Source: Hasllibacter sp. MH4015 (GTDB lineage: Bacteria; Pseudomonadota; Alphaproteobacteria; Rhodobacterales; Rhodobacteraceae). From it: DNA of 64,000 nucleotides. Every line of letters starts with the position of its first letter. Position 1 is the first letter of the stretch. Shown in pieces: positions 56,859-64,000 of the stretch. The notes under the pieces are model-generated. The model made no database searches. It saw nothing but the letters and a program-made list of their open reading frames with translations, and was not told the origin of the DNA. Location of the stretch: positions 3,116,001 to 3,180,000 of the forward strand of contig NZ_JAHTBK010000001.1 in the NCBI RefSeq assembly GCF_020177575.1, in the 5' to 3' direction. The position numbers and the translations under genes are program-made.

Positions 56859-59339
56859 TCAGGTCAGGGACCGCTCGACCTCTTCCCGTTCGAAGATTTC
56901 GATCACGTCATCGGGGCGGATGTCTTCGTAATTCTCGAAGGCCATGCCGCATTCCTGACCGGACTGAACCTCTTTCACTTCATCCTTGAAGCGTTTGAGG
57001 GTCTTCAGCGTCCCTTCGTGGATCACGACGTCGTCGCGCAGCAGACGCACCCCGGCGGAGCGGCGCGCCACCCCTTCGGTGACCAGACACCCGGCCACGT
57101 TGCCCACACCGGAGACCTTGAAGACCTCCTTGATGGTGGCGTAGCCGATGAAGTTCTCGCGGATCTCCGCGCCCAGAAGGCCCGATGCGGCGGCTTTTAC
57201 GTCATCCACAAGATCGTAGATCACGGAGTAATACCGGATTTCCACGCCCTTCTGGTTGGCGCTGTTGCGCGCGGGCGCGTTGGCCCGGACATTGAAGCCG
57301 ATGACCGGGGTGCCGGACGCTTCGGCCAGGCCGATATCCGATTCCGTGATCGCGCCCACACCGTAATGCAGGACCCGCACGCGCACCTCGTCATTGCCGA
57401 TCTTCTCAAGCGCCTGGACAATCGCTTCGGCGGAGCCCTGGACGTCCGCTTTCACCACGATCTGCAACTCCGCCACGTTCTCATCGGCCTTGGCGTTGGC
57501 CAGAAGCTGATCGAGCGTGGTTGCAGCACCGGCAGCGGCGCGTTTGTCCTTGGCGGCCTGCTCACGGTATTCCGCGATTTCGCGCGCCTGGGCTTCGGTT
57601 TCGACGACATTGAGGACGTCACCGGCCTCCGGCGTGCCGTTCAGGCCGAGCACCTCGACCGGAACCGAGGGACCGGCTTCCTGTACGCGGTCGCCCTGGT
57701 CGTTGACCAAGGCACGAACCTTGCCCCATTGCTCGCCCACGACGAAGATATCGCCCTGCTTGAGCGTGCCGTTTTCCACCAGCACGGTTGCGACGGGGCC
57801 CCGGCCCACATCCAGCTGCGCCTCGATCACGGCGCCTTGGGCGGCGCGTTTCGGATTGGCCTTGAGTTCCAGCAATTCCGCCTGAAGCGCGATGGCCTCC
57901 AACAATTCCGGCAAGCCATCGCCGGTCATGGCGGAGACTTCGACATCCTGCACTTCGCCCGACATCGCTTCCACGATCACCTCGTGTTGCAGCAGGTCGG
58001 TCCGGACTTTCTGGGGATCCGCGGCGGGGCGGTCGATCTTGTTGATCGCCACGATCATCGGCACATCGGCCGCCTTGGCGTGGGCAATCGCCTCCACCGT
58101 CTGGGGCATGACCGCGTCATCGGCTGCAACCACCAGGACCACAATATCCGTCACCTGCGCGCCCCGGGCCCGCATGGAGGTGAAAGCCGCGTGGCCGGGC
58201 GTGTCGAGGAAGGACAGAACCGCGCCGGATTCCGTCGTCACCTGGTAAGCGCCGATATGCTGGGTGATGCCACCGGCTTCGCCGGACACGACATTCGCCT
58301 GGCGGATCTTGTCCAGAAGCGAGGTCTTGCCGTGGTCGACATGGCCCATGATCGTGATGACCGGGGGACGCGGAACCAGATCTTCCGGCGCATCCTCGAC
58401 CGCGGCGATCACGTCCTCCACGTCGGCATCCGACACACGCTGCACGCGGTGGCCGAATTCCTCCACGATCAGTTCCGCCGTATCGGCGTCGATCGGCTGG
58501 TTCTGGGTGATCATCATACCGTTGTTCATCAACGCCTTCACGACGTCGGCGACCCGTTCGGACATGCGGTTGGCCAGTTCGGAGACGATGATCGTCTCGG
58601 GCACCTGCACGTCGCGGATGACCTTTTCGCGGTCCACGGGGCCGCCCATCGCCTTCTGGCGCTGGCGTTCCTGCTTGCGCTTCATGGCCGCCATGGAGCG
58701 CTGACGCCCGCCCTCGCCACCGGACATCGCCTGGTTGACGGTCAGCTTGCCGGAGCGGCGTCCGCCACCGTCATTGGCACGGCCACGCTCATTGCGCTTG
58801 TTATCCCGTTCGGGCTCGCGCCGCGACGGGGCGGCCTTGCCACCTCCGCGCGGACCTGCGGCGGCCGGTGCGGCAGCGGCGGTCGGGTCAACGGCTTCGG
58901 GCGGCGGTGCGTTGCGGCGTGCCTCATCCTCGGCCTTGCGGCGTTCGTCTTCTTCGGCCTTGGCTTTCAGCGCCTCTTCACGCTCGCGCTCTTCGCGTTC
59001 CTTGGCCTCGGCCTCGGCACGGCGGCGATTGCGTTCTTCTTCACGCTCGCGTTCGGCCTTCACACGTTCTTCGGCCTCTTCGACCTCGCGTGCCTTGGCG
59101 TTCTGCAACGCCTTCAGGCGACGCTCCATCTCCGCGTCGGGGACCGACTTGTCCCGTTTGCCGCCTTCGGCGTTTTGCGCAGCCGCCGAAGGGGCGCCGG
59201 GTTTCGGCACCATCACGCGTTTCCGCTTGGTCTCTACCACCACGGACTTCGTCCGCCCGCGCGAGAAGCTCTGGTTCACGCGGCCTGATCGTGCCCCACC
59301 CGAGAGGCCAAGGGGTTTCTTTCCGTCCTGATCGCTCAT
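56859..59339 (-). CDS. infB: Translation initiation factor IF-2
   Basis: GTPase placing initiator tRNA on the ribosome, 826 aa. The N-terminal third (about 20-260) is charged, repetitive and Glu/Arg/Ala-rich, typical of alphaproteobacterial IF-2. The G domain has [13 protein letters not shown] and N-K-I-D. C-terminal domains bind fMet-tRNA. The ATG at 59339 overlaps the ylxR stop by 4 bases. Confidence 0.98.
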
Positions 59340-59968
59340 GCGTTCCGTTCGTCCTTCCCGGTGGTCTGGCCACCGTCTGCTACACGCAGTCCCTGGAGTT
59401 TCGCGGCCCCCTCTACAACACGGGGGGCGAGTCCACCAGCGGCAAGCGCGCCATGTATCACACTTTGGCGACCGAATGCCAAACCCAATTCCTGGGCGGT
59501 GAGAATGCCAAAATATCGGGCCCCTTCCGGGGTCCACAGTTTCGATTTTCCGCGCTCAGACCCGTCAGAGGCCTGAAGCAGCACGCCAACCTGTTTCGTG
59601 GCGAGCCAGTCTTTCACTTTCTCGAACCCGGCAACCGCGTGGCCGCCCTTGCGGGCCATCGCGATCAGGTCGGTGACGCGGCGGGCCAGGGCGGCTTCGA
59701 CCCGGTCCACCAGATCCTCGGGCACCTGCACCGGTTGCTTGGCCGCGCGGGAGAAGAGGTTTTTCTTCACCGCACGTTCAAGCGCCGCGCGATCCGCGCT
59801 GACCCAGATACCGCGGCCCGGCAACCGTTCCAGGATATCCGGCGCGATTTGCCCGTCAGGTGCCACCACGAACCGGATCAGCCCCCGTTTGGGGGTCACC
59901 TCGCCCGTGGCGATGCACTTGCGTTCGGGACCGTCGCTTCGGTCCTTATGTCGGCCACCGCGGCTCAT
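59336..59968 (-). CDS. ylxR: YlxR (DUF448) RNA-binding protein with L7Ae-like domain
   Basis: 210 aa. N-terminal YlxR domain with R-K-C-I-A-T-G-E and L-P-G-R-G-I-W-V; the second half (about 90-180) resembles an L7Ae-type domain, a known alphaproteobacterial fusion. It lies between nusA and infB, the conserved position for ylxR, and is overlapped by infB. Confidence 0.88.
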
Positions 59969-59992: not shown

Positions 59993-61765
59993 TTAGCCCT
60001 CCACCCGCTCCTCGCTTGCGGCTTCGGCTTCCGCCGCGGCCTGCGCCTCAAGCTCCTCGATCGTGACCCAGCCCAATTGCAGGCGGGCCGTCATGACCAT
60101 GTTCTGCGCTTCCTCAAGCGACACGTCGAAGGGTTCCAGAAGGCCGTCATCCTTGATCCGCTCACCGCCTTCGGTCGTCCAACCGCCGGCAAGCTCCCAA
60201 TCGGCGCAGGTGCCGAAATCGTCCAGCGTCTTCACGCCATCTTCGCCCAAGGCCACCAACATTTGGGGCGTGAGGCCCTCAAATTCAATGAGGCTATCCT
60301 CAACGCCAAGCTCACGCGCCTTCTCCAGCGCCTTCTTGTTCTGCTCTTCGAGGTAGTCGCGGGCGCGGGCCTGAAGCTCGTTGGCGGTATCCTCGTCCAC
60401 GCCGTCTATGACCAGAAGCTCGTCCACTTCGACATAGGCGACCTCTTCCAGCGCGGTGAAGCCCTCAGACACCAGAAGCTGCGCGAAGAATTCGTCGAGG
60501 TCGAGCGTTTCCATGAACAGGCCCGTGCGCTCTTCGAACTCGGCCTGACGACGCTTGGATTCCTCCTCCTCCGTCAGGATGTCGATGTCGAGGTTCGTCA
60601 ATTGGGAGGCCAGACGCACGTTCTGACCGCGACGGCCGATGGCAAGCGAAAGCTGCTCATCCGGGACCACGACTTCGATCTTTCCGGCGTCCTCGTCGAG
60701 AACCACCTTGGAGACTTCGGCGGGCTGAAGCGCGTTCACCAGGAACGTCGGCGCGTCCTCGTTCCACGGGATGATGTCGATCTTCTCCCCCTGCAACTCG
60801 TTCACGACCGCCTGCACGCGAGAGCCGCGCATACCCACGCAGGCACCAACGGGGTCGATGCCGTTGTCGTAGGAGATGACGGCGATTTTGGCGCGGGAGC
60901 CGGGATCGCGGGCGACGGCCTTGATCTCGATGATGCCGTCATAGATCTCCGGCACTTCCATCTTGAACAGCTCACGCATGAATTCGGGCGCCGTGCGCGA
61001 CAGGAAGATCTGGTGGCCTCGGTTTTCGCGGCGCACATCTTTGATGTAGCAGCGGATGCGGTCGCCGTTGCGATAGGCTTCGCGACCAATCTTCTCGTTC
61101 CGGCGCAGTTGTGCCTCGCCCGAGCCCACGTCGACGATGACGTTGCCGTATTCCTCGCGCTTGACGACGCCGTTAATGATTTCGCCCACGCGGTCCTTGA
61201 ATTCTTCGAATTGGCGATCCCGCTCGGCCTCGCGCACCTTTTGCAAGATGACCTGCTTGGCCGATTGCGCGGCGATCCGGCCCATTTCCACGGGCGGCAC
61301 CTCGTCGGCGATCATGTCGCCCAGTTCGGGGGCCACGTTCTGATCCACGCCTTCGGTCAGGATGCGGTCGTTCTCGGTCGGCGCGCGCAGTACGAATCGC
61401 TTGACGTCGCGGGTTTCGACCAGCTCGCCCTCTTCGTCATAGATGTGGGACTTGGCGTTGAAGACGACGACATCGGGACGCTCCGCCGCGATCAGGGCGG
61501 TCGCCTCGTCGGGCAGCATCTCCGCCTTGTCGTTCTCCAGCATTTCCGGATCGGTCACGGTGCGCACACGGGTGAAGGTGGCGCGGCCCGTCTTGCGGTC
61601 GATGGAAACGCGGATGTCCAGCTCGGACCCGTAGCGGGACTTCGCGGCCCGGGCGAGGCTTTCTTCCATCGCTTCCACGACCAGTGACGGGTCGATCATC
61701 TTCTCGCGCGCCACCGCTTCCGCGGTTTGCAGCAACTCCAGCTGGTTGGCTGATGTGATGGCCAT
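59993..61765 (-). CDS. nusA: Transcription termination/antitermination protein NusA
   Basis: 590 aa. N-terminal RNA-polymerase-binding domain, S1 domain (about 135-200), two KH domains including G-M-R-G-S-R-V-Q-A and G-R-R-G-Q-N-V, and acidic C-terminal repeats (about 370-560) like those of proteobacterial NusA. ATG 61765 (M-A-I-T-S-A-N) is 4 bases downstream of the rimP stop. Confidence 0.97.
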
Positions 61766-61769
61766 GTTG

Positions 61770-62342
61770 TTAGTCCTCCGCCTTCGAGGTGTCTTCCTCG
61801 ATCTCGTCAAATTGCGTTTCGTCGATGATGCCGGCGTCTTTTCGCTGCTTCAGCATCTCCTTGATCAACTCGTCGGTCAGGACCAGCTTCGCGTCGCTAA
61901 GCCAGTCGAAATTCAGACCGACCGTCCCTTCCTCGATATTCAGCAAGACATCGTCCCCGTCGACGCCGGCCAGCACGCCTTTGAAGCGGCGGCGGCCGTC
62001 GATCACGTCCGTCGTCTCGATCTTCGCCTCATAGCCCTCGAAGGTCTCGAAGTCCTTCAGGCGGGTCAGGGGCCGGTCGATGCCGGGGCTGGACACTTCC
62101 AGCGCATAGGCATCCTCAAGCGGGTCCTCGACATCCAGAACCACGGAGATCGCGTTCGAGATCTGCGCGCATTCATCCACCTCGATCCCGCCATCGGGAC
62201 GTTCGGCCATGACCTGAAGCGTGTTCGTCTTGCCGCCCATCACGCGGATGCGCACCACTTCGAACCCGAGATTTTCGATCACGGGCACGAGTATTTCCGC
62301 CATGCGGCGGTCCATTGATGTCTTGGCAATCAGGTCTGACAT
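61770..62342 (-). CDS. rimP: Ribosome maturation factor RimP
   Basis: Needed for 30S assembly, 190 aa. Contains [10 protein letters not shown] and [11 protein letters not shown] 62342 follows GAGGGA closely and is the first gene of rimP-nusA-ylxR-infB. Its leader contains a terminator and an overlapping alternative hairpin. Confidence 0.96.
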
Positions 62343-62354
62343 AGATCCCTCTTT

Positions 62355-62393
62355 GCACGGCCCCAAAAACGAAAAAACGGGCCGTGCGGCCCG
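62355..62393 (-). promoter_or_regulatory. Attenuator-like switch in the rimP leader
   Basis: On the minus strand CGGGCC-GCAC-GGCCCG is followed by TTTTTTCGTTTTT, a textbook terminator, 22 bases before the rimP start. The inner GCACGGCCC (62379-62387) is also perfectly complementary to GGGCCGTGC (62355-62363) beyond the T-run. The two hairpins share bases and cannot coexist. The second ends just before the AAAGAGGGA ribosome site. Confidence 0.7.
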
Positions 62394-62448
62394 CTGAAAG
62401 TGTCGGTGGTGCGGTGGATCGTGACCCAGCCGCGCCGCTGTTGAGGGG

Positions 62449-62477
62449 GATATAGGGAGAATCGGGAGGCGGCGCAA
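62449..62477 (-). promoter_or_regulatory. Candidate promoter of the rimP operon
   Basis: TTGCGC and TATATC are separated by 17 bases. Transcription would start about 100 bases before rimP, upstream of the attenuator-like structure. The -10 matches that proposed for gyrB. Confidence 0.4.
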
Positions 62478-62480
62478 GGC

Positions 62481-62735
62481 TCAGCCGCAATGCACGTCCC
62501 GGATCACGTCAGCGGCATCAACTTCGAAGTTCAGCCGGGCCGGATCCGGGGCGACATCGCGCTGGCTGTCGGGGTAGATCACGCGGAAGATCAGCGGCAG
62601 GTCAGCGCCGGTTTCCAATTGCACGAGCGTCTGCCCCAGAAAGCCGCGCCATTGCTTTGCATTGCAATCCCCATCATGGGCCCCGGCCGGCAGCGGGCAG
62701 GCAAACAGCATCGTAAGGAACAGGGCGCGTGTCAT
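62481..62735 (-). CDS. I78-type peptidase inhibitor, exported
   Basis: 84 aa with a signal peptide (A-G-A, about 20). The mature domain has C-N-A ... G-F-L-G-Q, R-V-I-Y-P-D-S, A-R-L-N-F-E-V-D and ends V-H-C-G, the fingerprint of the I78 (elastase-inhibitor-like) family with a Cys pair. Last of three tandem relatives. Confidence 0.75.
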   Translation of the reverse strand: MTRALFLTMLFACPLPAGAHDGDCNAKQWRGFLGQTLVQLETGADLPLIFRVIYPDSQRDVAPDPARLNFEVDAADVIRDVHCG

Positions 62736-62778
62736 GGACCAAATGTCCGCCACGCGCCCCGCTGGCGCAAGGGAAGGG

Positions 62779-63144
62779 TCAGCCGCAATAGACGCGGTCG
62801 ATGATGTAGTTCGCATTCGTGCTGACGTTCAGGCGCTGGGGCTGGAAGTCCAGCGTGCCATACGGATTGTCGGGGGTGAAGTAACGCGCGGCGATCCCGA
62901 ACGACATCATGGAGCCGACGGGCTGTCCCACGAAGCCCTGGTACTGGTGGGCGCCGCAATCCTGACCCTGAACGGGAAGCACGGGCGCAGGGGTCCAACC
63001 ACTGTCTCCGATCGGGTTGATCACCGGCGCACCCAAATTGGGCGTGCTGCCGGGGCCAAAGTTGCCGATGGTTTGTGCGCCAGAAACGGCGGGGGCGAGA
63101 GAAAGAAGAAGGGCGGCGGCAATAGCCGTGGTGCGAAGGGTCAT
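62779..63144 (-). CDS. I78-type peptidase inhibitor, exported
   Basis: 121 aa, signal peptide cleaved after S-G-A (about 22). A Gly/Pro/Asn-rich linker precedes a domain with C-G-A-H-Q-Y-Q-G-F-V-G-Q, R-Y-F-T-P-D-N, Q-R-L-N-V and the terminal V-Y-C-G. Same fold signature as its neighbours. Preceded by GGAGATTTCACA. Confidence 0.75.
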   Translation of the reverse strand: MTLRTTAIAAALLLSLAPAVSGAQTIGNFGPGSTPNLGAPVINPIGDSGWTPAPVLPVQGQDCGAHQYQGFVGQPVGSMMSFGIAARYFTPDNPYGTLDFQPQRLNVSTNANYIIDRVYCG

Positions 63145-63149
63145 TGTGA

Positions 63150-64000
<851 letters not shown>

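Follow-up and report, generated by a model that had tools for sequence, protein, structure and literature searches.

A conserved attenuator-type leader with a candidate 5' antiterminator upstream of the rimP-nusA-ylxR-infB operon in Hasllibacter sp. MH4015 and its family

The joint setting of NusA, RimP and IF2 levels in bacteria is an old question. The closest described system is the rimP-leader, a terminator of the form GGGc(...)gCCC followed by a U-stretch at 4-130 nt from the gene start, which its describers headed "the most ubiquitous transcription attenuator" (PMC2965389, Naville and Gautheret 2010). The sections of that paper dealing with the leader report neither a larger conserved element nor an antiterminator for the general form, describe a tandem version with a potential antiterminator in several Gammaproteobacteria only, and name NusA as the best candidate effector (PMC2965389). 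The corresponding Rfam entry, RF01770, is labeled "Gammaprotebacteria rimP leader" (PMC5955585). In Bacillus subtilis, NusA is described as autoregulated via NusA-stimulated termination in its own 5' leader (PMC12288461), and weak terminal base pairs have been associated with NusG-stimulated termination, and breaks in the distal U-tract with NusG- and NusA-dependent terminators (PMC8060035). Two terminators, t1 and t2, have been placed upstream of rimP in Escherichia coli, where NusA affects its own operon and where the leader region of strain K12 also includes the tRNA gene metY and RNase III sites (PMC6511841).

We analyzed a stretch of 64,000 nucleotides from Hasllibacter sp. MH4015 (the window). 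On its minus strand, a leader interval extends from the end of a small ORF at 62481 to the rimP start at 62342, and the genes downstream of it follow the order rimP-nusA-ylxR-infB, as identified by Pfam (RimP, NusA, YlxR and IF-2):

61770..62342, minus strand: rimP (PF02576, 1.9e-23), with its ATG at 62342-62340
59993..61765, minus strand: nusA (PF13184, 8.2e-29; PF08529, 1.1e-26)
59336..59968, minus strand: ylxR (PF04296, 1.3e-23)
56859..59345, minus strand: infB, coding for IF2 (PF11987, 3.1e-41), start codon putative

The initial annotation of this DNA had proposed an attenuator-type leader with its own promoter before these genes, a claim borne out by the Pfam matches together with family-wide conservation, and its coordinates proved correct on direct reading of the minus strand. 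The elements that we distinguish in the leader are, from upstream to downstream:

62472..62477, minus strand: TTGCGC, -35 element (direct reading and script)
62449..62454, minus strand: TATATC, -10 element, after a 17-nt spacer
62435..62443, minus strand: CAACAGCGG, conserved block 1, where the transcript is predicted to begin
62434..62438, minus strand: GCGGC, candidate antiterminator 5' strand, pairing with 62386-62390
62411..62433, minus strand: hairpin H1, varying in sequence among species with its pairing kept
62404..62409, minus strand: CCACCG, conserved block 2
62376..62395, minus strand: AGCGGGCCGCACGGCCCGTT, intrinsic terminator hairpin (folding and conservation)
62386..62390, minus strand: GCCGC, part of the terminator 5' arm and loop, candidate antiterminator 3' strand
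62365..62377, minus strand: TTTTTTCGTTTTT, T-run (T6 at 62377-62372, CG, T5 at 62369-62365)
62355..62363, minus strand: GGGCCGTGC, 3' strand of the alternative pairing of the initial annotation, found in this genome only
62347..62352, minus strand: AGAGGG, likely rimP ribosome-binding site by its sequence

This arrangement resembles the rimP-leader in its position in the 5' UTR of rimP-nusA-infB (the transcript being predicted), in a GGGCC GCAC GGCCC hairpin that fits the GGGc(...)gCCC stem, and in a U-run whose T6 lies 29 nt from the rimP ATG, inside the published 4-130 nt. It differs in having two extra conserved blocks, the hairpin H1 and a candidate 5' antiterminator without covariation, all of them family-wide. 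We count it as a variant of the rimP-leader because the absence of a larger element is, in the sections of the original paper on the general form, an observation and not a criterion. With RF01770 it shares the gene and the proposed role. The RF01770 model (cut-off 47 bits) had no match in the window, nor any up to E 10 in 62000-62800; its best match in the genome (18.1 bits) falls outside the window, none of 16 relatives scores above the cut-off, and in a control search 1 of 14 control genomes passes it. No riboswitch, T-box or other Rfam cis-element reached its gathering score in the window, and at E <=10 there were two weak matches, RF02423 (a Burkholderia sRNA) scoring 14.1 bits at 62369-62450 vs a cut-off of 80. 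The likeness to the metY-nusA-infB leader of E. coli K12, as its source describes it, lies in the terminators upstream of rimP; no tRNA genes were found in the 64,000-nt window, so there is no counterpart of metY. The B. subtilis nusA leader, compared by its published description only, likewise has a leader terminator before the NusA operon, and the A-U and G-U foot of the window terminator and the CG break in its T-run recall the Nus-dependent terminators described in that species, which is a weak hint. Among the open-licence PubMed Central papers listed in our searches, none reports the version of the leader present in this family, although such a report may exist.

Three consecutive small ORFs lie 5' of rimP on the same strand (62481-62729, 62779-63144 and 63246-63719). 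Pfam assigns the latter two to the peptidase inhibitor I78 family, while the first has no Pfam match and ends in the same C-G-stop style as the I78 ORFs.

The family sample consisted of 124 loci (13 from the genus, 30 plus 80 from RimP matches, and L142). The 80 follow the E-value ranking approximately, some matches having been passed over, and the sample is not a random draw. The alignment of the leaders (A1) includes 123 of them and leaves out L089, in which block 1 reads ACGGCGG; its consensus is CAACAGCGGCGCGTCGGG-loop-CCCGA-GCTCCACCGG-AAA-CAACGGGCCGCGCGCCCGTTTTTTTGTG. The leader L089 (genome G037) has ACGGCGG before a hairpin and GGGCCGTG in the terminator, and the candidate antiterminator pairing would survive in it with one G-U pair. 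A sequence profile of the leader (R1) matched 191 of the 199 genomes drawn from the family, each of a different genus; RimP was matched in 195 of the 199. The R1 searches of family and class were run with stricter filters, which lose weak matches. The eight genomes without an R1 match are four without a RimP match (G030, G075, G118 and G132) and four with one (G066, G088, G095 and G164). The leader of G088 (L097) is yet present in A1 in a diverged form. G066, G095 and G164 are small genomes (2.1-2.6 Mb) in which the leader may have been lost or have diverged. In the Hasllibacter genome itself, the best R1 match is the one at rimP (62.3 bits), followed by another of 17.1 bits. Judged by its sequence conservation, the leader is genuine, strongly conserved and of the attenuator type, a family-specific variant of the rimP-leader.

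The promoter TTGCGC-N17-TATATC of the initial annotation is present, and conservation in the family puts it beyond chance. A TTG-N-TA pattern at a near-fixed site before the leader is found in 116 of 122 family loci (one of 123 was dropped for unread bases) vs 39 of 2440 shuffles, the expression often having caught a second TAT, for which its spacer and distance counts were not used; a further comparison of the promoter columns was made on the 116 loci minus 10. A generic promoter scan found no promoter at the locus at its thresholds. From these elements, transcription is predicted to start near A62442.

Downstream of the promoter, the order conserved in the family is CAACAGCGG, a varying hairpin, CCACCG, and then ACGGGCCGC..GCCCG plus the U-run. 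Block 1 is exact in 88 of the 123 aligned leaders; AGCG followed by G or A occurs upstream of the terminator in 123 of 124 loci, the exception being the ACGGCGG of L089, and the alignment columns A8, G9, C10 and G11 are invariant. Of the 123 leaders, 121 can form H1 with 4 bp or more, the mean z relative to mononucleotide shuffles being -2.6, and 4 of the 28 column pairs tested, in more than one register, beat all 200 permutations. Two further pairings were considered and rejected. A closing pair between CGG of block 1 and CCG of block 2 has a mean probability of at most 0.17 and is above 0.5 in no more than 17 of 123 leaders. Pairing of the leader stretch from block 1 to the terminator (H1 and its loop) with the first 16 nt past the T-run, which had been suggested by GUCCAAAC / GUUUGGAC in some species, gives a mean run of 4.43 vs 4.58 when permuted.

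The terminator that the initial annotation had placed before rimP is also there. Its core, CGGGCC-GCAC-GGCCCG at 62393-62378, extends to 8 pairs with flanking A-U and G-U (62395-62376). Single-sequence statistics are weak: the terminator piece folded alone gives -14.8 kcal/mol (z -1.8), the 140-nt leader has no extra stability vs shuffles (z -0.87), and the 8 kb scanned contain 6 terminator-like sites vs 7.2 in shuffles, with no excess. Promoter and terminator are beyond chance because they are conserved, GGGCC plus a T-run being found before rimP in 124 of 124 family loci. In the terminator helix 16 cells are double-changed (4.0 in shuffles), with a compensatory change from A-U to G-C at its foot in 14 cells; pairs with double changes number 2 vs 1.8 in shuffles, with no excess, and the covariation score is equaled by a +3 slide. 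Six other GGGC..GCCC+T5 sites in the genome of Hasllibacter sp. MH4015, a small number, all lack GGGCCGC; some of these sites may not be terminators, the pattern being no commoner than its reversed control. We infer that termination does take place at the leader hairpin. The sequence past the T-run (A1 columns 101-107) is partly conserved, reading GTGYYTGRA in many species, and such conservation beyond a terminator is unusual.

On the 5' side of the terminator lies a conserved candidate alternative fold, which would replace the mechanism of the initial annotation. The sole helix in the RNAalifold consensus of A1 is that of GCGGC with GCCGC, in which 97.9% of the cells are paired; 111 of the 123 leaders have all five pairs, and 119 have the inner four. 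On the terminator side, GGGCCGC is exact in 114 of 123 leaders, the G and the C after GGGCC being kept in 122 and 120. There is no covariation in this helix (0 double changes, and paired cells equal to the shuffled mean), the columns being too invariant to show any; with the 3' side slid by 3 columns, 95.7% of the 257 cells left are still paired. In partition-function calculations on growing transcripts, the antiterminator has a mean probability of 0.82 (>0.5 in 102 of 123 leaders) when the RNA extends 9 nt beyond the initial G of GGGCC. At +15 nt this falls to 0.14 (>0.5 in 17 of 123) and the terminator stands at 0.51 (>0.5 in 65 of 123), reaching 0.61 at +20 nt (>0.5 in 75 of 123). For the window leader, the antiterminator probability is 0.99 in the prefix, and that of the terminator is near 1 up to the T-run. 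Four leaders (L076, L112, L077 and L106) have the inner four pairs broken without compensation; in L077 and L106 block 1 is still AGCGG despite the changed loops, and therefore block 1 must have another role too. Both CAACA and CCACCG are conserved yet unpaired in the antiterminator model.

Outside the family, we compared 28 loci of the class, taken from the best 30 of 53 matching genomes after removal of two in-family ones. A terminator of the rimP-leader type is present in 20 of the 28, by a pattern that misses some loci with a similar hairpin visible (such as L130), and 16 of the 20 have GTGGGC in the 5' arm. The terminator is thus widely shared, as Naville and Gautheret reported. AGCGG occurs in the leader at 1 of these 20 loci, and the complementarity between leader and terminator is at chance level (mean p 0.59, 1 of 20 below 0.05); an equivalent antiterminator was sought in other families and not found at the 20 of 28 loci with a terminator. 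By this comparison, the two conserved blocks seem to have been added in this family. Across the class, R1 matched 11 of 115 genomes at E 0.01, and only two in-family genomes scored >23 bits. Of the weaker matches, those in G251 and G248 adjoin rimP and correspond to the end of the model with the terminator; that in G239 (19.7 bits, model positions 6-87) is located elsewhere than at rimP. A loose-pattern scan of genome contigs returned at least 117 stretches, mostly from unrelated taxa. When R1 was run on 15 mostly alphaproteobacterial stretches, L157 (Rhodobacterales bacterium) had the full leader (69.6 bits), L232 (Sphingomonas) a weak partial match (16.7 bits), and L202 (Rhodobacteraceae) no match. 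A plasmid search gave no match.

This genome thus carries one strong copy of a leader with a conserved promoter, conserved blocks, the H1 pairing and the terminator. We think it probable, with considerable room for doubt, that it works as an attenuator of the rimP-leader type in which a 5' antiterminator competes with the terminator, likely under the control of NusA. RNA polymerase would start near 62442 and transcribe a leader of about 71 nt before meeting a strong intrinsic terminator, and part of the polymerases would read through into rimP-nusA-ylxR-infB. The growing leader would make H1 first, between the two conserved blocks; once GGGCCGC emerges, GCGGC of block 1 would pair with it and hold the 5' arm of the terminator, and on emergence of the 3' arm the terminator would normally displace the antiterminator. 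This order of folding is predicted only, from the modeled prefixes. An operon product, most likely NusA, would act on the competition between the folds and set its own level. By analogy with B. subtilis and E. coli, NusA feedback on the leader is a plausible hypothesis.

The initial annotation had proposed a different switch, in which the terminator competes with a downstream 9-bp pairing across the T-run that senses NusA. We consider this very improbable. The complementarity itself was described correctly, GCACGGCCC (62387-62379) being perfectly complementary to GGGCCGTGC (62363-62355), and the two folds share bases and are mutually exclusive. Their energies are also close, since the piece with 7 of the 9 alternative pairs folds at -14.2 kcal/mol vs -14.8 for the terminator piece, and folding of the 140-nt leader places the alternative pairing in the minimum-energy structure and the terminator in the centroid. 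A complementary run of 9 appears at a frequency of 0.00015 when the downstream 34 nt are shuffled by mononucleotide, a value that ignores the extent of sequence scanned for that annotation. However, conservation in relatives, on which the proposal had been staked beforehand, fails: 1 of 123 leaders has the pairing, and 0 of 12 genus-mates. Between the terminator hairpin and the 35 nt that follow it, the longest complementary run has 9 pairs here, 6 or fewer in each of the remaining 122 leaders and 3-5 in the 12 genus-mates, with a mean over all loci of 3.72 vs a permuted mean of 3.74. When different species are cross-paired, 25 of 15006 combinations reach 9; the downstream sequence of the window takes part in 11 of the 25, because the hairpin is conserved, and it is therefore this downstream sequence that is singular. 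Moreover, the 3' strand is transcribed after the T-run, past the termination point, and therefore comes too late to govern termination in the way of an ordinary antiterminator. The specific 3' switch is thus unsupported, and the pairing is best regarded as an accident private to this genome, relevant, if at all, only in read-through RNA, where it could conceivably play a role, for example near the ribosome-binding site.

Still less credible is that the terminator belongs to the upstream genes for small secreted proteins and that the rimP promoter merely precedes it, as might be thought from the same-strand ORF ending at 62481, just before the promoter. The conserved promoter sits between the upstream gene and the terminator, and an upstream gene with a YCG-stop ending is found at 12 of 13 genus loci vs 1 of 109 other scored loci, yet the leader stays. 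A possible, if on balance somewhat unlikely, explanation is that the blocks form a binding site for a protein or ligand, or an aptamer (for NusA, RimP, a ribosomal protein or a small molecule), and/or a promoter-start signal, the pairing of block 1 being incidental. Block 1 lies at the predicted RNA start, is conserved past its complementary part and persists in two leaders with a changed loop, and CCACCG, though unpaired, matches exactly in 112 of the 123; on the other hand, the GC conserved after GGGCC is unneeded by a stem-only terminator and can be explained by pairing with block 1. We regard as quite unlikely that the leader provides fixed attenuation by a constant factor and/or that its product is itself a small RNA. 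The conserved strong hairpin and U-run would suit such a role, and a rimP leader is listed among the ProQ-associated sRNAs derived from attenuators in the relevant section of PMC5391140, but a fixed damper would have no obvious need for two upstream blocks and a kept hairpin.

A two-state leader can also be pictured, tentatively and as a rather unlikely reading, in which CAACAGCGG, H1 and CCACCG form a domain read by NusA, RimP, IF2 or the assembling 30S. Binding would close block 1 and let the terminator form, and in the unbound state block 1 would sit on the terminator 5' arm and the operon would be on. If this two-state reading is true, the family would have a dedicated antiterminator for an operon of transcription elongation and translation initiation, unlike the antiterminator-free form that has been reported for most bacteria. 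The two conserved upstream blocks are small, defined targets for studying what senses the products of the operon, and how.
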